From a virus: a stretch of 25,785 bases of DNA. Positions within the stretch are counted from its first letter, which is position 1. Each line of letters opens with the position of its first letter. Below are positions 3,430 to 24,942 of the stretch, one piece after another. The notes under the pieces were generated by a model. That model saw only the letters and a program-made list of their open reading frames with translations. It had not been told where the DNA came from and ran no database searches. A program made the position numbers and the translations under genes. Location of the stretch: positions 1 to 25,785 of IMG/VR virus record IMGVR_UViG_3300009285_000380, one strand, 5' to 3'.

Positions 3430-3441
3430 ATTTTCCCTCCC

Positions 3442-4737
3442 CTAAATTACCCTATAATTATATCTATCAACAAAATTACTCATTTCCTCTGGTGTTGCAG
3501 CACGTCCACTTGAGAAATAGTCATAGGCAGAAGTAGGCTGCGAACTAATAGGCTGTAAACCAGTTCCAAATCCAGGACTATTATACCCAGGATTTGAATA
3601 CTGAGTCCCTTCTTTCCATAGCCACGGGTCAGGCTCTGTAGGTAATACCGGCTGAACGCCAACTCCTCCGCTATTATATCCAGGATTAGGCACCCAACCT
3701 CCTCCGCCACCGCCATACCCAGGGACGCCTACTCCACCACCGTATCCCCCCCCTCCGCCACCGCCATACCCAGGGACGCTATAGCCACCACCATAGCCAC
3801 CGCCGCCAGTAGGAGTCTGCCCTGTAATTGCTGCATAAAGAGAATCTCTTGACATCCCTTCAGGCAATTCCATCAATGGTATTTGCCTTGTATTTGCTGC
3901 TGATGTCAATCCACTTGTCCTTGTGTTCGCAATATCAGTGCTAAACCCAGCACGCCCTAACAATAACTGTATCTGCCTATCCAAAGCCGATTCCTCAGCC
4001 CCTAACTTTGCCGAAGTAGCCCCATACCGCTGACTTGCCATATTGCCATATATGCCAGCCTCAGCCCCAGTAACACCTGTAAGTGACGCTACTCTGGCAG
4101 TTTCAGCATCTCTTTCCCTATTCATACGTTCAAGGTCAATATCCCTGTTAGACTGCGCTAAATCAGCCGCACGCTGAGACTCTATATCATACTGCAAGCC
4201 CATAGACGCACCAGAAGGACCGTAACCGGTTGCTGTTTGCCTTGCTGTCTGTTCCGCTAAATCGGTATATGACCTTGTCAAATCCTCTTTAGCCTGAGTC
4301 TGTAATGTTGCATATTCTTCATCAGACATCAATCCAGACTTATAAGCACTATCAATAGCAGTCCGTAAATCCTGGTATCCTTGCAATGCCTTGTCGTAAT
4401 CTTCCCCAGGCTGTAATTCAGCATATCGGCTTGTAATCGTATCCCTCTGTGCTTGAGCCTCATCTAAAGCAGTTTGATAATCCTGAAGAGATAATTGCCC
4501 TGTTTGGTAGGCGTCTTCAATCGCCTTCAAAATATTCTGATAATCCTCTTCTGCTTTATCAACCGCCTCCTGACGTTGTCTAAAAATTTCCTTCTCAAGT
4601 TCATAGTCATTAGAGGTATAACCATAAGTGCCAGGCATAGACGGATAATCAGACGGTAACCCATAAGGGTTATTAGGGTCATAACCTCTCGGTAGCATTT
4701 CTCCCGGGTCATATATTATTTCATCATTATTAGCCAT
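3442..4737 (-). CDS. Gly-rich coiled-coil protein, candidate internal/ejection protein
   Basis: 431 residues, preceded by an AAAGGGGATG-type ribosome site. Residues 1-45 are Pro/Tyr-rich. Residues 46-165 are a long helical region holding two copies of a helical unit, AIEDAYQTGQLSLQDY at 72-87 and AIDSAYKSGLMSDEEY at 127-142, 55 residues apart. Residues 165-285 are a further Ala/Arg/Gln-rich helical region (RAADLAQSNRDIDLERMNRE). Residues 310-365 are Gly/Tyr-rich with repeated VPGYGGGGGG. The tail has NPGYNS twice and a short helix at the end. Position after the tail genes and the helical, low-complexity make-up fit a T7 gp14-like or P22 ejection-type role, but I see no diagnostic motif. Confidence 0.85.
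   Translation of the reverse strand: MANNDEIIYDPGEMLPRGYDPNNPYGLPSDYPSMPGTYGYTSNDYELEKEIFRQRQEAVDKAEEDYQNILKAIEDAYQTGQLSLQDYQTALDEAQAQRDTITSRYAELQPGEDYDKALQGYQDLRTAIDSAYKSGLMSDEEYATLQTQAKEDLTRSYTDLAEQTARQTATGYGPSGASMGLQYDIESQRAADLAQSNRDIDLERMNRERDAETARVASLTGVTGAEAGIYGNMASQRYGATSAKLGAEESALDRQIQLLLGRAGFSTDIANTRTSGLTSAANTRQIPLMELPEGMSRDSLYAAITGQTPTGGGGYGGGYSVPGYGGGGGGGYGGGVGVPGYGGGGGGWVPNPGYNSGGVGVQPVLPTEPDPWLWKEGTQYSNPGYNSPGFGTGLQPISSQPTSAYDYFSSGRAATPEEMSNFVDRYNYRVI
3701..3779 (-). repeat. Tandem 28-bp direct repeat in Gly-rich coding tract
   Basis: Two identical 28-bp copies occur at 3701-3728 and 3752-3779 (51-bp period). Each encodes a VPGYGGGGGG unit. The exact identity suggests slippage or recent duplication inside the Gly-rich tract. 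Confidence 0.85.
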
Positions 4738-4754
4738 AATACATCATCCCCTTT

Positions 4755-5984
4755 CTATTTTAATATCTTCAACCAATTATCAATACCTATAAAACACACA
4801 CCATTAACATTCTGCCCTTTTACATACTCAATAAATCTATCTTTCCTTTCTTTAGTATTGCCAATTTCTTTATCAGTCCACAAATTATAAGTATCACCCA
4901 AAAATCCGCCTACAACAATGGGCTTATCTTTAGAAATCCGCCTGTAATACAAGTTAAGGTTCATACCCATTAGAGTATTAAAGAAATGCGGACCCCACCA
5001 CCAGTCGCCATCCGCTTTAATCTGAATAGCCTCATCCCATTTCTTGTCTCTGCCCTCCCCAGGATAGAAGCAAATCTGTCTATAAACATAAATATTCGGT
5101 GCTTGAGATTTAAGATAAGCAATAATCTTTTCTGCAATCTTACCGCATTCAGCGTATCTGTCTGGAGACAGGTCAATGCTGTTTTGTTTACCCCATAACA
5201 CGATAACAGAATGAATGAGAGGCTCATTGGATATATTCACCTTATTAACTATCTTCCCAATCAACTGTAATAGACCCACATCTTCATATTCAAAATCAAA
5301 TGCAAATATAATCTGTTTATCAGTATTAACCACTACTTTGAAAATTTCATTTAAAATATCTTCTTTAATCTCATATACAGGCACTAACAAACAGTCAATT
5401 TCTTTTTTACTGATAGCCGATTTAATTTTGGTAAGGTTATCACATTCACCAATACCGATAAAGAATGGTTGAGGCGATAATTGTGTAGGCATATTTCCCT
5501 CTATATACTTCACCAACGCCTGCACCTTGTCAGCAGGTATAACGCCAGCAAGTTCAGTCTGCAACTTTATGTAATCTTTAGTATTGATATAATGACTAAC
5601 CCTCACCGATTTAACAGCGTCCATCAATTCCTTACCATAGTTAATCACGCTATCATAAGTCACGATATAGTTCACCCACTGCGTAACATCAAACTTTGTA
5701 ACATCGTAACTTTCTAACTTATACCGCATAAACTCAATTTGTTCTGGAGTAATATCTTTTGCATATTTCAGAACATCAGCAAAAGTTTGTATATCAAATT
5801 TTATAATCTCTTTATCGTATCTGACTATATCTATTTTCTGGGGCGTGATGTAAAAACTATATCCCTCTATAGCAAGAGTAACCGAGTCAAGATTTCTGAT
5901 GGGAGTCCCCAACTTCACCGTATTCACCACCTCTGCCTGTGCAAAGGTTGAGATAAATAATATTGTCAGTATGAGATATTTCAT
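4755..5984 (-). CDS. Exported protein with possible TIM-barrel C-terminal domain
   Basis: 409 residues from ATG 5984. A GTG lies six bases upstream at 5990, but it falls inside the AGGTGA ribosome site, so the ATG is preferred. The N-terminus MKYLILTILFISTFAQA is a clear Sec signal peptide with an AQA cleavage site. Residues about 20-170 are an unrecognised mixed region. From about 175 onwards alternating beta and alpha segments appear (PFFIGIGECDNL, IDCLLVPVYEIKED, QIIFAFDFEYED, IHSVIVLWGKQ, NIYVYRQICFYPG, KPIVVGGFLGDTYNLW, VNGVCFIGIDNW), which read like a glycosidase-type (beta/alpha)8 barrel. Candidate acids are in FDFEYED and DGDWWWG, but I cannot assign catalytic residues. Starts 7 bp after the stop of the TPR gene. 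It might be a cell-wall or polysaccharide hydrolase; this is weak inference. Confidence 0.85.
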   Translation of the reverse strand: MKYLILTILFISTFAQAEVVNTVKLGTPIRNLDSVTLAIEGYSFYITPQKIDIVRYDKEIIKFDIQTFADVLKYAKDITPEQIEFMRYKLESYDVTKFDVTQWVNYIVTYDSVINYGKELMDAVKSVRVSHYINTKDYIKLQTELAGVIPADKVQALVKYIEGNMPTQLSPQPFFIGIGECDNLTKIKSAISKKEIDCLLVPVYEIKEDILNEIFKVVVNTDKQIIFAFDFEYEDVGLLQLIGKIVNKVNISNEPLIHSVIVLWGKQNSIDLSPDRYAECGKIAEKIIAYLKSQAPNIYVYRQICFYPGEGRDKKWDEAIQIKADGDWWWGPHFFNTLMGMNLNLYYRRISKDKPIVVGGFLGDTYNLWTDKEIGNTKERKDRFIEYVKGQNVNGVCFIGIDNWLKILK

Positions 5985-17740: not shown

Positions 17741-18709
17741 TTATGATGTGGGAAAATTACTCGCACAATCAAACCTAAAATTATCTATCCTTACACCAGC
17801 CCTTGCTATAACAACCGCTTCCCAATTACCACTACGTTTATCTTCAAAGAAATCTACCGTAGCACCACGTCTTTCCTGAAACACTTTACCTTTCTTCACT
17901 TTCGTTAAACACCAGAAATCAGTGTCAGTAATCTTTCTCCAGACTACCAGATTAACGATAGAGTTAAGCAAGTTCTTATCGTTAGCAGTAGACCCTGGTA
18001 TAAGTGTTGACTCAAGCAGAGTCCTCGCTGTCCATACTATAGCACCACCACCAACAATCAAGGTATCGGGTTCTATTACCTCGTCTAAATCCTTCTCGTT
18101 TTTCGCATTAGTAACAGTCATCAAATCCCACTGAGTCTTGAAATTTGCTACTGTAAGGTCTAATGCCGCACCATTGTAATACGTACCGCCGCCTTTTGAC
18201 GCACGGGTATTGCCACTCAAATTAAAGAATGGTTTGTTGTCGTAACAAAGCGAACCTGTTCCGGTAGCAGCAAACCCTGGCAGGTCATTATTGAAAACGT
18301 TATGTCCTGCTGTATATCCACCATATAGATATACTTTTGCTGCTAAATCATCCTGAGTCTCAGGCCATTGTCGGCCCCACTCCTTTGCCATGTGTCTCAG
18401 CATATCTTCTATTCTCTGATGGTCATCCTGGGCTTCAAGAGTGATAATGAGCCTGTCTTTAAATGTCCTGTTCTTCCCAAAAGTGGTAAATCCTTCAAGC
18501 GGATTACTTACAGGAGCGTCTTCGCCTTCATTCGTTTCTGTCAATCTACCTACTCCAATTATTGACGTTCCCTGTTCACGAGCACTATCAGATTTCTCTA
18601 TTGCAAGAATCTCAGGGTATTTAGGTTTATATTCGCTATACGCCTCACCTTCGTCAAAATATTTATACATCTGCTTTTTTTGACCTTCAATAAAATCTGC
18701 ACGTAACAT
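17741..18709 (-). CDS. Major capsid protein (HK97-fold predicted)
   Basis: 322 residues with an AGGAGGTGGTAATTAGATG start. Residues about 40-90 (GVGRLTETNEGEDAP, FTTFGKNRTFKDRLIITLEA) resemble the N-arm and E-loop region; 93-130 (DHQRIEDMLRHMAKEWGRQW) the long spine helix; then a P-domain and A-domain with LDLTVANFKTQWDLMTVTN, DTLIVGGGAIVWTARTLLES and EAVVIARAGVRIDNF at the end. The pattern resembles Mu gpT-type and related HK97-fold capsid proteins. It follows scaffold and decoration genes, the standard order. No fused protease is visible, so maturation cleavage, if any, uses a factor not recognised here. Confidence 0.87.
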   Translation of the reverse strand: MLRADFIEGQKKQMYKYFDEGEAYSEYKPKYPEILAIEKSDSAREQGTSIIGVGRLTETNEGEDAPVSNPLEGFTTFGKNRTFKDRLIITLEAQDDHQRIEDMLRHMAKEWGRQWPETQDDLAAKVYLYGGYTAGHNVFNNDLPGFAATGTGSLCYDNKPFFNLSGNTRASKGGGTYYNGAALDLTVANFKTQWDLMTVTNAKNEKDLDEVIEPDTLIVGGGAIVWTARTLLESTLIPGSTANDKNLLNSIVNLVVWRKITDTDFWCLTKVKKGKVFQERRGATVDFFEDKRSGNWEAVVIARAGVRIDNFRFDCASNFPTS

Positions 18710-18738
18710 CTAATTACCACCTCCTAATCTATTTTAAC

Positions 18739-19194
18739 TTACGCTACTCCTGTAGACCCCATCTTCGGTGGGTTCATTCTCACATCTACATAACTTAATG
18801 CTGCTGTTGAACCGATAAACATACCCACAATCTGGATAACATCCTCATTACTTTCTCCAATATCTGCATACTGGATATCAGATGTAACAATTAAATCGCA
18901 GGTATTCCACTTATCAGTTAAAGCAGGAATTGCATCGCAAGGCATCCTGTAAATAGAGTCGCAGGATATATCAACGACTATCTCTGTTAATCCATCAGTA
19001 GCGATTGCAGTATATTCGCCTGTATCACCCCACCCGATTAGTTCTGCATTACCAGAACCTGCAATATCCAAAAAACCCGCTCCATCGGTTTTCAGCCAAG
19101 CACCACCCAGAAACTTAAATATTTCTGATGCGCCGATAGGTGCTTTAACCAAACAGCGGGGCCCGTATAAATACCCATATTTCAATTGAGCCAT
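18739..19194 (-). CDS. Probable head decoration protein
   Basis: 151 residues with an AGGAGGTGTGTAAGTTATG start, between scaffold and capsid. It is strand- and glycine-rich: PRCLVKAPIGASEIFKFLGG, SGNAELIGWGDTGEYTA, TEIVVDISCDSIYRMPCD, NEDVIQIVGMFIG and LSYVDVRMNPP. Position and composition match head decoration or stabilisation proteins placed directly before the capsid gene in lambda-like arrangements. No exact family was recognised, so a different head role cannot be excluded. Confidence 0.78.
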   Translation of the reverse strand: MAQLKYGYLYGPRCLVKAPIGASEIFKFLGGAWLKTDGAGFLDIAGSGNAELIGWGDTGEYTAIATDGLTEIVVDISCDSIYRMPCDAIPALTDKWNTCDLIVTSDIQYADIGESNEDVIQIVGMFIGSTAALSYVDVRMNPPKMGSTGVA

Positions 19195-19213
19195 AACTTA
19201 CACACCTCCTATA

Positions 19214-19975
19214 CTATTTTTTAATTGTTTGTAACTTTTTCCTGTTCTCTAATATCTCGGCTGCGGATTCTTCTGTTACTCCTAACCGCACAGCCTCCTT
19301 TTTTATTTCAGACGTAATGACAGGTTTTCTGGCAGGTCTCATATCGCCAGGAGAATTATGCCTGACCTCACCAACCACTTCTCTTTCTACTCTGGGCTTT
19401 TGAGATAACTTACCAGTCCTGGCTAACCTGCCAACAGCAGAGTCGTAAGAATTATCAACATCTTGAGAAATAGGCTCAATCCCACTTGCAGCAATCCTCG
19501 CTATTCTATTGCTAACTTCCGCTTCTACCTGTGCCCATAACTTAGGGTTCTCTGCACGCAATTGTTCCTTCCTGGTCTCTACGCTATTTTGATATAAAGG
19601 TTTGAGAAACGGTGTCATCGCTCTTATGGCAATCTCGCTAAATTTTTTATTGAGTTTAGCCGTTGCTCCCTCACCAAACGTCTCATCAAGCTCTTTACTA
19701 TCAATCGGATTACGGGCTTGCCGTTCAATATTATTTAGCCTATTCAATATCTGCTGATTCTGCTCACGTAGTGCACGATTCTCCTCTTGCGTTCTCCGGT
19801 AAGCCGCCTCGGCATCAGGTTTAAATTCTTTTTTCCTGGCTTCTTCTTCTGTCTTAGCGGCTTCTTCTGCTGCTTGTGTTTCTGCCGCTTCTTTTTCCGC
19901 TGCTTCCTTAGCCTCCGCATCTTCTGCCGCCTTGGGTTCCTCTTCCGCCCTTAGCTCTTCCTCTGTCATTACCAT
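19214..19975 (-). CDS. Capsid scaffolding protein
   Basis: 253 residues, start ATG 19975 with an AAGGAG site six bases upstream. Residues 4-60 are Ala/Glu/Lys helix. Residues 60-90 are a coiled coil (NRALREQNQQILNRLNNIER). A middle helical region (LNKKFSEIAIRAMTPFLKPL) and a basic C-terminal tail (ENRKKLQTIKK) follow. This highly charged helical make-up, together with the place between portal and capsid, fits a scaffold, whose C-terminal helix binds the capsid protein. The gene starts directly after the three-hairpin array, with the last stem ending about 10 bases before its ribosome site. Confidence 0.85.
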   Translation of the reverse strand: MVMTEEELRAEEEPKAAEDAEAKEAAEKEAAETQAAEEAAKTEEEARKKEFKPDAEAAYRRTQEENRALREQNQQILNRLNNIERQARNPIDSKELDETFGEGATAKLNKKFSEIAIRAMTPFLKPLYQNSVETRKEQLRAENPKLWAQVEAEVSNRIARIAASGIEPISQDVDNSYDSAVGRLARTGKLSQKPRVEREVVGEVRHNSPGDMRPARKPVITSEIKKEAVRLGVTEESAAEILENRKKLQTIKK

Positions 19976-19992
19976 TTTTCACTCCTTGTTAT

Positions 19993-20082
19993 TCAGCCAT
20001 ATCCAGGTGACTGAGCCTGATTTAGCCATATTCAGGTGGCTAATCCTGATTTAGGGTTTGCAGTTATATTCAGGTAACTGCA
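19993..20082 (-). promoter_or_regulatory. Array of three covarying hairpins with a conserved CCTGAATA loop
   Basis: In transcript sense, three hairpins follow one another: CAGTTA-CCTGAATA-TAACTG (20080-20061), TAGCCA-CCTGAATA-TGGCTA (20042-20023) and CAGTCA-CCTGGATA-TGGCTG (20013-19994). The stems differ but stay paired; the third contains a U-G pair that would be C-A on the other strand, so the structure belongs to the minus-strand RNA. Outer bases extend the stems to 8, 7 and 7 bp. The first hairpin's loop carries the TGA stop of the 20070-20363 gene; the last ends just upstream of the scaffold ribosome site. Each of the first two is followed by TAAATCAGG, complementary to the loop. Confidence 0.8.
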
Positions 20083-20363
20083 CCTGCTTCTTCGCCTTTC
20101 TCTGCGTTCTTACCTGCTTCAATAAACGTCATTGATGCAGATTGAATTTCTTTTAATAGATTGATTTCCGCTCTTAACTGTTTTGCATAAGAGTCAACTT
20201 CACCAGCAGGTGATAACCATAATTCAAAACGGTTCTTTATTGCTATCTCAAACAACCTTTGAAAAGTCGGATACCGCGAATCTTTTGTAAACTCTTTGAA
20301 TTCTCCTGCCTGCTGAATTGTTAGTCTACGTGCTTGCTCTTCTTCGCTTATAGGTTCGCTCAT
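20070..20363 (-). CDS. Small phage protein between portal and scaffold, unknown function
   Basis: 97 residues, ATG overlapping the portal stop as ATGA. Largely helical: SEEEQARRLTIQQAGEFKEF, FQRLFEIAIKNRFELWL and AKQLRAEINLLKEIQS. The gene ends inside the first hairpin of the array, so translation to its stop would unfold that hairpin. I do not recognise the family. Confidence 0.78.
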   Translation of the reverse strand: MSEPISEEEQARRLTIQQAGEFKEFTKDSRYPTFQRLFEIAIKNRFELWLSPAGEVDSYAKQLRAEINLLKEIQSASMTFIEAGKNAEKGEEAGAVT

Positions 20364-22426
20364 CTATTCATTCCTCTATCTACCGGTGCCCCAAAAGGCG
20401 GGGCTTTTCTAACTACGGGTGGATTGACTGTTCTTCCAGGAGGCATACCACCCCCACCGCCAGCAGGTATCATGCCAGGTGGCGGCAATAATCTCTTCAA
20501 CTCATCAGCCGAAGGTAATATCTTATCTATCTTCTTATCCCATTCACCACCAGCAGATGATAGAAACGCTTCATCCAACTCACGGACTATATCAAACCTA
20601 CCTTGCTGCACTAATGCCTGAACCAATGGACTGCTTAGCATTACTTGTCTGACAACAGTATTTATCTGATGCTGAATAATTTTATTTGAAATAGCAGTAG
20701 ACCCGTGAGGTCTAAAATCAGCCCTGAAAAACCTTGCTTCTTCTCTCGTAATGTTTACAGGTATAACCTTCTCACCTTTCCCTAATATTCTCTGTTCTTC
20801 TTCCTCATCCATAAACTGATATATCAACTGCCCTATCTGATACCCCACCTCTGCATTGGCTACCTGAAAGTTTTCTACAAATTCCGATATATTGATGTTT
20901 GATTCCTGTAATAAAGCAATGGTCTTATTGCCTGGTGCATTCGGGTCGCCAGGCGTCTGCTGTCCGCTTGCCCCTGATGATATACCAGTCCGCTGTTCTC
21001 CAAACTGTTCTAATTGCGGGATAAGGTTAAATAACGTTGACGGCGCCCCATTTATTGTCAACTGTTTCACGTCATTATTCGGGTCTGCTGTAGTCCAGAT
21101 TTTGCCAGGGAAAAACTTACCCTGGTCTGGTGAAAACCCTGATGCCTGTCTCTTAAAGAATGTAGGAATATTCATTACTATCCCTGAATCCAACAACACA
21201 TCTAAGACACGTTTCTGTGCACGGGATATTTGCCTTACCATTTTTATAAGTGAATGTCCGTCAAAACTATCTTCATCTCTCAGTATATAAAACGGTATAA
21301 AATAACATTTATTATGAAAATACGGGAATACGTTTGCCTGTAACATTTCCTGACGGTCTAACTCTACCGTAAATACGCCTTTAGTTAATTCGCCTTTCTT
21401 GTTATAAAATTTATATATTACTTCATAGCATTCGTAAGTTTCTTCCTCGTAATCCGGATTATCTACATCATTACCATCTTTATCCTTGTCCTTCATAATT
21501 TTTAAGTTATCAATATTAGCAAATATTCCTTCATCTGCTTTCTCCTGTATTTCATGCCAAGTCAACTCAAACCTATGTCCTACAAGCCTGCATTCCTCAA
21601 GGTCACGCTTTCCAACACTAAAAACAAAGTCTTTCCTGCTCACTCGCTCTGCTTTCGGTCCTTTATACGAATAATCTTTATACCGTGATACAAAAGTTAT
21701 TTTCTCACTATCCATTAGACGCTTGTAGAACTTAGGATACTTTTCTTTTGCTTCTTCACCATATACCCGTATAAATTCATCAGGATTATCAAATGTCTCC
21801 AAATCCTGCATCCATTCCTTTTTTCTAAAATAAGTCAGTTTTAAAATACCAGTCCCGCGTTTACACGCATCATTTATCAAGTCGTTATAAATACCCGGCA
21901 ATTTCATTTCTACCTGTGCCTTATAATCAAGCAAACTCTCCAGTTTATCTATAACCTCAACATCAGCCTTTTCCTGCGGGTCTATTATCCAGAACGGTTT
22001 AATAAATATCGCCTGCTTAATCCTCGGTCTTGCTCTATCAACGTGCCTTGCCCCCATATAAGTATGGAAGTTGGACGCACCTTCAAACAAGGATGATTTG
22101 TCTGATACTACACCATCATATTCTCGTTCCCATTCTTCTATCTTAGTCATCAACTCCTGACGGTCTGGGTCGTTTAATATATCGTTTATTTCTGCACAGA
22201 TACGAGAGGCTAAGACCTTCTTTTCAGCGTCAGTCAGATCTAACTCTATAGTATAATCCTTCTCATTATCTTCGTCTTCTTCCTGCTCAGCCAGCTCAAC
22301 GTCTTCACGTGTAGACTTAGGCTTTTCTTCTATAGGTGTAATGTCAGGCATAGGCATTGCCCCCATTGGACCTGGTGGCATTCCAGCCATTGTCATTCCT
22401 GGTGCTAATGGCAGTTCTGGCGGCAT
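20360..22426 (-). CDS. Portal protein
   Basis: 688 residues, starting directly after the preceding stop (TAAATG). The N-terminal 50 residues are Met/Pro/Gly-rich and acidic. The core has portal-type features: ADVEVIDKLESLLDYKAQVE (long helix), YNDLINDACKRGTGILKLTY (clip/stem region), VSRKDFVFSVGKRDLEECRL, CYFIPFYILRDEDSFDGHSL, IKMVRQISRAQKRVLDVLLD and, near the end, ISEFVENFQVANAEVGYQIG, before a Pro/Gly-rich C-terminus. The length and pattern fit the large portals of podovirus and related phages (P22-like size class). It is the twelve-fold ring that anchors terminase and tail. It follows the terminase block and precedes the scaffold. Confidence 0.87.
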   Translation of the reverse strand: MPPELPLAPGMTMAGMPPGPMGAMPMPDITPIEEKPKSTREDVELAEQEEDEDNEKDYTIELDLTDAEKKVLASRICAEINDILNDPDRQELMTKIEEWEREYDGVVSDKSSLFEGASNFHTYMGARHVDRARPRIKQAIFIKPFWIIDPQEKADVEVIDKLESLLDYKAQVEMKLPGIYNDLINDACKRGTGILKLTYFRKKEWMQDLETFDNPDEFIRVYGEEAKEKYPKFYKRLMDSEKITFVSRYKDYSYKGPKAERVSRKDFVFSVGKRDLEECRLVGHRFELTWHEIQEKADEGIFANIDNLKIMKDKDKDGNDVDNPDYEEETYECYEVIYKFYNKKGELTKGVFTVELDRQEMLQANVFPYFHNKCYFIPFYILRDEDSFDGHSLIKMVRQISRAQKRVLDVLLDSGIVMNIPTFFKRQASGFSPDQGKFFPGKIWTTADPNNDVKQLTINGAPSTLFNLIPQLEQFGEQRTGISSGASGQQTPGDPNAPGNKTIALLQESNINISEFVENFQVANAEVGYQIGQLIYQFMDEEEEQRILGKGEKVIPVNITREEARFFRADFRPHGSTAISNKIIQHQINTVVRQVMLSSPLVQALVQQGRFDIVRELDEAFLSSAGGEWDKKIDKILPSADELKRLLPPPGMIPAGGGGGMPPGRTVNPPVVRKAPPFGAPVDRGMNR

Positions 22427-23230: not shown

Positions 23231-23441
23231 CCGTTACCCCCTTCGGTCTCCCTGCCCAATCCGTCCTTATTATTTTCGTATGCTTTCCCTCTAACCTAAC
23301 AACCTTAAATTTATCCGTCTTCCCTGCCTCGCCTATCCGCTCCCGCTCTTTACGAATTATCGGCTCAAGCGTTTCACCCTTCGTCCCCATAACCTCTATG
23401 ACGTGATGCGGCAGGTGTCCTTCCCACGGGAGTTTAGGCAT
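23223..23441 (-). CDS. Small phage protein downstream of terminase, unknown function
   Basis: 72 residues from ATG 23441. Another ATG lies at 23447, but the AAGGGAG site is seven bases from the second and one base from the first, so 23441 is chosen; it overlaps the terminase stop by eight bases. The product reads MPKLPWEGHLPHHVIEVMG, then an Arg/Lys/Glu helix (IIRKERERIGEAGK), and ends RTDWAGRPKGVTDE. Not recognised. Confidence 0.72.
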   Translation of the reverse strand: MPKLPWEGHLPHHVIEVMGTKGETLEPIIRKERERIGEAGKTDKFKVVRLEGKHTKIIRTDWAGRPKGVTDE

Positions 23442-24942
23442 TAGCATACTCCCTTAGTTCGTTCATACGGGATTCGTCGGATTGGATGTAGTCTTCTTCC
23501 GTGTTCCTGTAAATCATATCGTTAGTCTGTTGACTAAACGCCCATTGTAACATTTTCCAACAATCACCACGCCCGGGACTACGTCCCAATCGTTCCTTAA
23601 TCTCATCCTTTGGTATAACCTGCAACCTGCCTTTGTTATCCTCAAAATACTCGTCTTCCATTAGGTCTTCTTTTAACTCAGTATCCTTAGGATTGATAGC
23701 CGCCTTACCTTGCTGTCCTCTATCACGTGCTATAAATGCCGCCTCGGCTCGCATATTGGCGTATATCGGTCTATCATTCTCCTTTACCTCTGACGCCGCT
23801 GAACCGTGAAACTTGATAATCTTAATACCCTTCACGTAGTCTTGAGATAGTTTGTTTAATTCTTGGTATACTCCTATCCCCAAACCATCACAGTCAACAA
23901 TTACAAATCGTCCCTTAATGCTCTTACACATCTCAACCGCTTTTACCGCCGATACAGAAGGCGCCATGAGTGTCTGGGTAAATACATCAAGGACTTCACC
24001 ACCTACACCTGCCATAAATACGTTCTCATCCACACCCTCACCCGCGGGGTCTACGGATACACCCCGAACATTAGAATTGATTGATAAAACTCCATACCTG
24101 TCCGCCATGTGGTCTATCACAGTCAACGGGAATATACTATTTATACCAACATCTGGTATCTGTCCTAATACCCTACCAATCCAGCGTGGGTCATGTTCAC
24201 CCCATTTAGTCCGTTTATCTTCTACCCATTCGTAACTTACTAATCCGGGAATTACTGTTTTTTTCTCCTTGTAATTCGGGGAATCTAAACATGAGAAATT
24301 GAACACGATATTATTTTCCCGGTCCCTCAATCCCTTGGCGAATCTACCATTCGCTCTTGTCGGATTACCAATAAAAATTACAAGGACATTTTCTGATGTT
24401 GCTATACCATCAATCTGGTCAAAAATCTCGTCTTCAATGGCCTGTGCCTCGGTTGCTATAATACACATGTTCGGGGAATGATACCCCTGAAACCTACCAC
24501 CGCCGCCCTGTGCCGCCGCTCCGGTCTCCCTCGTAGTAAACCCTATCATATACCAATCAGCAGCAACCTCTAATCTCGGCTCTATGTATGCCCTACCTCC
24601 AAAATCTACTTGCTTACGTTGCCAATGCCCCACAGTCTCTTTCCACATAATACTTTTCGTTTGCCTGTCGGTGGGTGCGGTCTGAATAACGATTGAGGGA
24701 ATGAACGTCTGGAGAAACCATAACGATATGGCAGCAGTAATATAATCCTTGCCCAATGAGTGCCCGGAGGCGAGGTATATATGCCTATGCTCCTTGATAG
24801 CACGATTGCAGCCTTGCAGTAACTCATCCTGTAACTGCCAGGTCTGCTTGACGCCTAACACCTCCCTGCAGTATGCCACGGGGTCGCTCTGGTATCGGTC
24901 TAATGTTTCGCTAATTTTCTGTATATCGGGTTTCTTTGCCAT
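23434..24942 (-). CDS. terL: Terminase large subunit
   Basis: 502 residues. The ATPase domain carries a Walker A-like SGHSLGKD (59-66) and a coupling motif IFIGNPT (189-195). The expected Walker B reads CIIATEAQAI (160-169), where the usual Asp before Glu is Thr164. The nuclease domain has candidate metal ligands D298 (GVSVDPAG), D350/D352 (VIVDCDGLG) and D460 (GRGDCW). These motifs in order are typical of large terminases that package DNA into preformed heads and cut it. The preceding stop (24951) lies nine bases upstream, with a GAGAGG site. Packaging mode cannot be told from the sequence. Confidence 0.93.
   Translation of the reverse strand: MAKKPDIQKISETLDRYQSDPVAYCREVLGVKQTWQLQDELLQGCNRAIKEHRHIYLASGHSLGKDYITAAISLWFLQTFIPSIVIQTAPTDRQTKSIMWKETVGHWQRKQVDFGGRAYIEPRLEVAADWYMIGFTTRETGAAAQGGGGRFQGYHSPNMCIIATEAQAIEDEIFDQIDGIATSENVLVIFIGNPTRANGRFAKGLRDRENNIVFNFSCLDSPNYKEKKTVIPGLVSYEWVEDKRTKWGEHDPRWIGRVLGQIPDVGINSIFPLTVIDHMADRYGVLSINSNVRGVSVDPAGEGVDENVFMAGVGGEVLDVFTQTLMAPSVSAVKAVEMCKSIKGRFVIVDCDGLGIGVYQELNKLSQDYVKGIKIIKFHGSAASEVKENDRPIYANMRAEAAFIARDRGQQGKAAINPKDTELKEDLMEDEYFEDNKGRLQVIPKDEIKERLGRSPGRGDCWKMLQWAFSQQTNDMIYRNTEEDYIQSDESRMNELREYANA

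Follow-up and report, generated by a model that had tools for sequence, protein, structure and literature searches.

Three predicted tandem H-type pseudoknots in the leader of a putative phage scaffold gene

Results

Three repeats precede the putative scaffold gene

The window, that is, the whole stretch of DNA analysed here, is a virus record of 25,785 bases from an uncultivated tailed phage. Its structural genes lie on the minus strand: portal is followed by a 97-aa ORF, then by a 253-aa putative scaffold and a 151-aa protein, with the major capsid protein last (Table 1). The naming of the scaffold rests on its position between portal and capsid, on the composition of this charged protein and on the same gene order in relatives; family searches gave no match for it or for the 97-aa ORF. 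The gap before the putative scaffold gene is 94 nt long and, together with the last bases of the 97-aa ORF, houses three repeats, units A to C, which read CAGG-N-(7 nt)-CCUG-(AAUA or GAUA)-(7 nt) in the minus-strand (coding) RNA. All three share one geometry, with stem S1 of 4 bp, loop L1 of 1 nt, stem S2 of 7 bp, no L2, and loop L3 of 4 nt.

The units are 72–83% alike, are spaced by 29 and 38 nt, and start at −111, −73 and −44 relative to the scaffold start. Between unit C and the start codon lies only AUAAC-AAGGAG-UGAAAA, so that the last stem ends 5 nt before the Shine-Dalgarno sequence, closer than the roughly 10 bases given in a first-pass annotation of this DNA. That annotation had correctly placed the stop codon of the 97-aa gene in the first loop. 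We considered frameshifting or readthrough at this stop and rejected it, because a second in-frame stop follows immediately (TGA ATA TAA).

Table 1 Coordinates of the features discussed, in the window unless a relative locus (L number) is named
Feature	Position	Strand	Remarks
Portal protein	20360..22426	-	SU10_portal, PHROG 1216
97-aa ORF	20070..20363	-	TGA stop (20072-20070) inside unit A
Unit A, H-type pseudoknot (predicted)	20060..20086	-	Overlaps the end of the 97-aa ORF
Unit A, S1	20086-20083 with 20074-20071	-	CAGG with CCUG; L1 U (20082)
Unit A, S2	20081-20075 with 20066-20060	-	GCAGUUA with UAACUGC; L3 AAUA (20070-20067)
Unit B, H-type pseudoknot (predicted)	20022..20048	-	L1 A
Unit B, S1	20048-20045 with 20036-20033	-	CAGG with CCUG
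Unit B, S2	20043-20037 with 20028-20022	-	UUAGCCA with UGGCUAA; L3 AAUA (20032-20029)
Unit C, H-type pseudoknot (predicted)	19993..20019	-	2 nt after unit B; L1 C
Unit C, S1	20019-20016 with 20007-20004	-	CAGG with CCUG
Unit C, S2	20014-20008 with 19999-19993	-	UCAGUCA with UGGCUGA; L3 GAUA (20003-20000)
Shine-Dalgarno AAGGAG of the putative scaffold gene	19982..19987	-	Read from the sequence
Putative scaffold, 253-aa charged protein	19214..19975	-	Leader carries the element
Major capsid protein	17741..18709	-	PHROG 371; query for relatives
NAC/C hairpins	About 30-110 nt upstream of scaffold start		L048, L049, L052, L053, L054, L055, L060, L061, L065, L070, L098, L100, L109, L113 and others
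Com-like gene, L049	4484-4744
Com-like gene, L055	4417-4680
Com-like gene, L065	4382-4591
Com-like gene, L067	4352-4546
Com-like gene, L068	4457-4651
Com-like gene, L070	2814-3062
Com-like gene, L098	3243-3482
Com-like gene, L100	3902-4135

The S2 stems covary and the units fit a pseudoknot

All seven S2 pairs are formed in all three units, and four of the seven change on both sides; one of these four also includes a U-G wobble, which pairs only in minus-strand RNA. Between units A and B, four S2 pairs differ, each on both sides, with the pairing intact. When the columns of S2 were permuted, all 21 cells were paired in only 4 of the 5040 arrangements, and under random substitution from a paired ancestor all S2 pairs are kept with P of 1.5e-5 to 2e-4. 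We are highly confident that the S2 stems are real. The covarying tandem stems reported by the first-pass annotation are thus borne out, as is the pair that works only in minus-strand RNA; their length was underestimated, as all three stems have 7 bp instead of six.

The loop CCUGAAUA is conserved as had been described, with one G-for-A change in the RNA. Its first four bases (CCUG) are complementary to an invariant CAGG located exactly 1 nt 5′ of each S2 stem, and the CAGG/CCUG spacing is constant in all units despite the differing spacing of the units themselves. Because this CAGG precedes each stem and complements the loop, the element runs to 20086; the annotated extent was right at its low end, 19993, and too short at its upper end, 20082. 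Covariation is no test of S1, which is constant in all three units, and the support for S1 is therefore positional and geometric.

In H-type knots, one nucleotide can span the deep groove of 7 bp; on the complement strand, one nucleotide would have to span the shallow groove of 7 bp, and the geometry therefore fits the coding-strand RNA only. The stacking sums are about −7.5 kcal/mol for S1 and −12.5 to −13.1 kcal/mol for S2, compared with −6.6 to −7.5 kcal/mol for the hairpin alone; as predicted values, they leave room for the usual pseudoknot penalty. Plain minimum free energy (MFE) folding, a method blind to pseudoknots, gave an unexceptional z of −1.06 for the 131-nt region, and the window leader from −110 to −12 had an MFE z of −2.27; both scores are modest. 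Units of exactly this geometry occurred 17 times in 2.58 Mb, counting both strands of every sequence retrieved, and tandem copies sharing one S1 were confined to the window. We consider it very probable, on this modelling, that the units are pseudoknots. They are better called so than hairpins with a protein-read loop, since the "loop" is half of a second helix, and the earlier structural reading was to that extent incomplete.

Pattern scans of viral contigs for two or three CAGG units found no further genuine arrays; the matches, including L021 and L025, were set aside as lacking S2 pairing or as unrelated repeats or coding sequence. Rfam gave no match at or above the gathering threshold in the window or in 11 relative loci.

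Scaffold leaders of relatives are structured, in another form

Relatives were found with a chimeric query of the portal and capsid core, followed by capsid alignment, and have the same gene order. The sample comprised 47 distinct scaffold leaders, five doubtful automatic scaffold calls being excluded from the fold z-scores and the H-type knot counts. The capsid, portal and tail-type proteins as single queries found no relatives, nor did a search of genome contigs, and phage records gave remote matches only. The terminase (23434-24942) has relatives of 53–64% identity that are without the portal and capsid proteins of the window (17741-22426). From these differing portal and capsid genes, the packaging and capsid modules appear to be mosaic. 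These terminase relatives (L012–L016) were dropped as a comparison set, as their capsid module is not in common with the window.

Scaffold leaders fold better than control segments, with a median z of −1.75 versus −0.60 to −0.68. In a general count, H-type knots were present in 2 of 43 scaffold leaders, one of them that of the window, versus 0–1 of 42 per control; pseudoknots as such are therefore no group-wide feature. The CAGG knots are absent from the scaffold leaders of all relatives (47 distinct leaders).

Instead, 20 of the 47 leaders have a different element, a hairpin of the form stem-NAC-stem-loop-stem-C-stem (NAC/C hairpin; Table 1), present in one to three copies. Fourteen of these 20 loci pass a strict search, and the remaining ones, with shorter stems, were added by eye. 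The strict search gave 23 matches, against an expectation of 0.4–0.5 based on the remaining sequence of these loci and of 0.32 based on shuffles; when all 64 combinations of a dinucleotide with an opposing base were compared, AC/C had these 23 and the runner-up 4. The NAC pair counts come from an N-padded alignment whose rows were chosen because they pair, and hence illustrate the pairing without proving it. In nearly all NAC loci, the last hairpin starts 34–47 nt before the start codon and the preceding one 32–42 nt earlier, and in five relatives an upstream ORF stops inside the last hairpin, much as the 97-aa ORF of the window does inside unit A.

What the window shares with these leaders is a tandem array set at fixed intervals from the scaffold start: the AC positions are −101, −66 and −32 in L052, which has three hairpins, and about −100, −62 and −33 in the three units of the window. 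The strict hairpin search found no match in the window leader, where NAC is present with no local second stem. Common position and the common NACC suggest that the knots and the NAC/C hairpins are homologous. This is only a suggestion, because the NAC loci belong mostly to one distinct capsid clade, with 57–69% identity to L052 among the members aligned versus 32% for the window. The nearest capsid relatives (41–44%: L043, L044, L046, L072 and L074) have neither knots nor NAC hairpins. The first-pass proposal to look for the structure at the same position in related phages turned up tandem RNA structures in many of them, but of another form, and neither form in the nearest. The broader claim of the annotation, that selection maintains an RNA structure ahead of the scaffold gene, is backed by both the internal covariation and the structured leaders of relatives.

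Several relatives show further features around the scaffold gene. L088 has, at about 3430–3470 and just before the scaffold ribosome site, a differently shaped H-type pseudoknot (TACGACT-tc-CGAG-AGTCGTA-aaat-CTCG). In L069 (about 4550–4660) and L071 (about 5785–5895), a CTCCGC..GCGGAG hairpin has a loop, TCGGGTCT, that can pair with AGACCCGA, and the same CCCGA can alternatively pair with TCGGG, which is followed by TTTTTT; from its sequence, this arrangement looks like an attenuator before the scaffold gene. By eye, a terminator-like hairpin with a T run lies directly upstream of the scaffold leader in L043, L046, L048, L051, L065, L102, L113 and L119. The gene between scaffold and capsid is tandem-duplicated in L047 (5575-6626), L064 (5480-6528) and L069 (5512-6549), and in L047 and L069 both copies match the 151-aa ORF of the window.

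A Com-like gene often accompanies the NAC/C hairpins

Of the 20 NAC loci, 13 encode a small Com-like zinc-ribbon protein ahead of the scaffold gene, versus none of the 27 other loci (Fisher 5.5e-7, for loci that are not independent). The calls were made at E below 0.01, and three of the 13 are weak. Two of these proteins score above the Pfam cut-off for Zn_ribbon_Com, and the same two match PHROG 6417, "translational regulator". There is no Com-like ORF in the window, a record that may itself be only a fragment.

In phage Mu, translation of mom is activated by Com, which binds a hairpin next to the start of that gene (PMC6483171). Like com/mom, the loci of the relatives would represent phage translational control through RNA beside a start site, and they encode a Com-like gene just upstream of a structured scaffold leader. 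A Com-like protein is thus a plausible partner of the NAC/C hairpins. Unlike in Mu, where the Com motif CC(N)2-3GAG is in a hairpin loop and the target is mom, the units of the window show no such motif and precede a scaffold gene, in a record without a Com-like gene.

Discussion

The closest known counterpart of the three units is the gene 32 knot of T4, T2 and RB69, which is also of the H-type, with S1 of 4, L1 of 1, S2 of 7, no L2 and an A-bearing L3. As a positive control, we applied a search of this kind to the leader of T4 gene 32; its best match lay at −67, with S1 4, L1 1, S2 7 and L3 5 (UGCC-a-GCUAUGA-GGUA-aagug-UCAUAGC); L3 is 4 nt in the window versus 5 nt in T4. Both phages have the structure within a gene's leader, ahead of the ribosome site, and the 5′ part of the T4 knot likewise overlaps an upstream ORF (PMC535899). 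The T4 knot is the operator to which gp32, the product of gene 32, binds in repressing its own translation (PMC3014915, PMC535899). The differences are that T4 has one knot and the window three, that the long unstructured A+U-rich stretch of T4, with UUAA(A) repeats over the ribosome site, is absent from the window, and that the controlled gene encodes the single-strand binding protein gp32 in T4 but a putative scaffold here.

Other systems resemble the element in part. The upstream pseudoknot domain of tobamoviruses (named in PMC4683447) is one. In TMV it is a row of short H-type pseudoknots in the 3′ UTR, at the 3′ end of a plant RNA virus, and has another role. A scaffold gene under control of its own synthesis has its precedent in P22, a phage unrelated to that of the window. 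Autoregulation of the P22 scaffolding protein reportedly acts after transcription; autogenous control of its synthesis is said to have been described by Wyckoff and Casjens in 1985 (as cited in PMC5744158).

We propose, with a probability of roughly 0.6, that the three tandem H-type pseudoknots together form a cis-acting region that controls translation of the scaffold gene; the control itself is suggested by position and by analogy with the T4 gene 32 operator. The three knots would fold in the late mRNA, where a protein would bind them, probably in a cooperative manner. The simplest ligand would be excess scaffold protein, in analogy to gp32 and to the autoregulated scaffold of P22; otherwise, a phage RNA-binding regulator could serve. 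The bound protein would block or open the adjacent ribosome site, and scaffold output would thereby follow capsid assembly or demand. In addition, the termination of ribosomes inside unit A, at the end of the 97-aa ORF, could couple scaffold control to upstream translation. Among the roles offered by the first-pass annotation, tuning of scaffold translation is the best, an RNase site or an RNA bound during assembly having no specific support. We found no paper on either form at a scaffold gene in the open-licence literature.

Could the structure act without a dedicated ligand? As a barrier to mRNA decay, the fold would keep exonucleases away from one message end, either the 5′ end of the scaffold-capsid mRNA or the 3′ end of the portal mRNA, and so set relative amounts. 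Its position between two genes would suit this, as would the apparent intrinsic terminator directly upstream of the structured leader in several relatives, which would place the leader near a transcript 5′ end there, and the unusual stability of T4 gene 32 mRNA, which bears a similar knot (PMC3014915). We nevertheless regard a decay barrier as rather unlikely, as it needs neither three near-identical knots nor the conserved NAC/C internal loop of the relatives, and the tight placement against the ribosome site, in the window and in relatives, speaks against it. Unlikely, too, are simple hairpins in which CCUGAAUA serves as a protein recognition loop, with the upstream CAGG there by chance or left over from duplication. 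S2 is the sole helix with covariation and knot-free thermodynamic folding does yield such hairpins, but they leave unexplained both the invariant CAGG 1 nt before every stem, complementary to the loop, and the match to the T4 gene 32 geometry.

The three CAGG-N8-CCTG dyads, with their constant half-sites, might also be read at the DNA level, as operators for a dimeric DNA-binding protein or as part of a packaging or replication signal. Such a role does not predict 7-bp S2 pairing across the dyads with compensatory changes; moreover, one U-G pair fits minus-strand RNA only, the loop lengths suit coding-strand RNA only, and no promoter-like site lies nearby on the minus strand, which leaves a DNA element very improbable. 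Even less probable is a recent duplication of one functionless hairpin with pairing that is inherited and accidental. The similarity of the units (72–83%) and their absence from the nearest relatives would be expected of it, but between units A and B four S2 pairs have changed, each on both sides, and pairing persists (P of 1.5e-5 to 2e-4 under random change), so that this explanation is already disfavoured.

If our reading as a translational control region is true, the element is a concrete RNA target for the control of scaffold synthesis, and the three-fold tandem knot before a scaffold gene could be a second case beside T4 gene 32. From the relatives comes a further RNA motif, which has no Rfam match and for which a Com-like protein is a plausible partner. 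More speculatively, across a broad group of uncultivated tailed phages, scaffold genes might be under a dedicated post-transcriptional switch, which would occupy a fixed place in the leader. Its tandem RNA modules would be interchangeable: pseudoknots of the T4 type in the phage of the window and, in another clade, NAC/C hairpins recognised by Com-like zinc-ribbon proteins. The structured leaders suggest a little-known control point in virus assembly.
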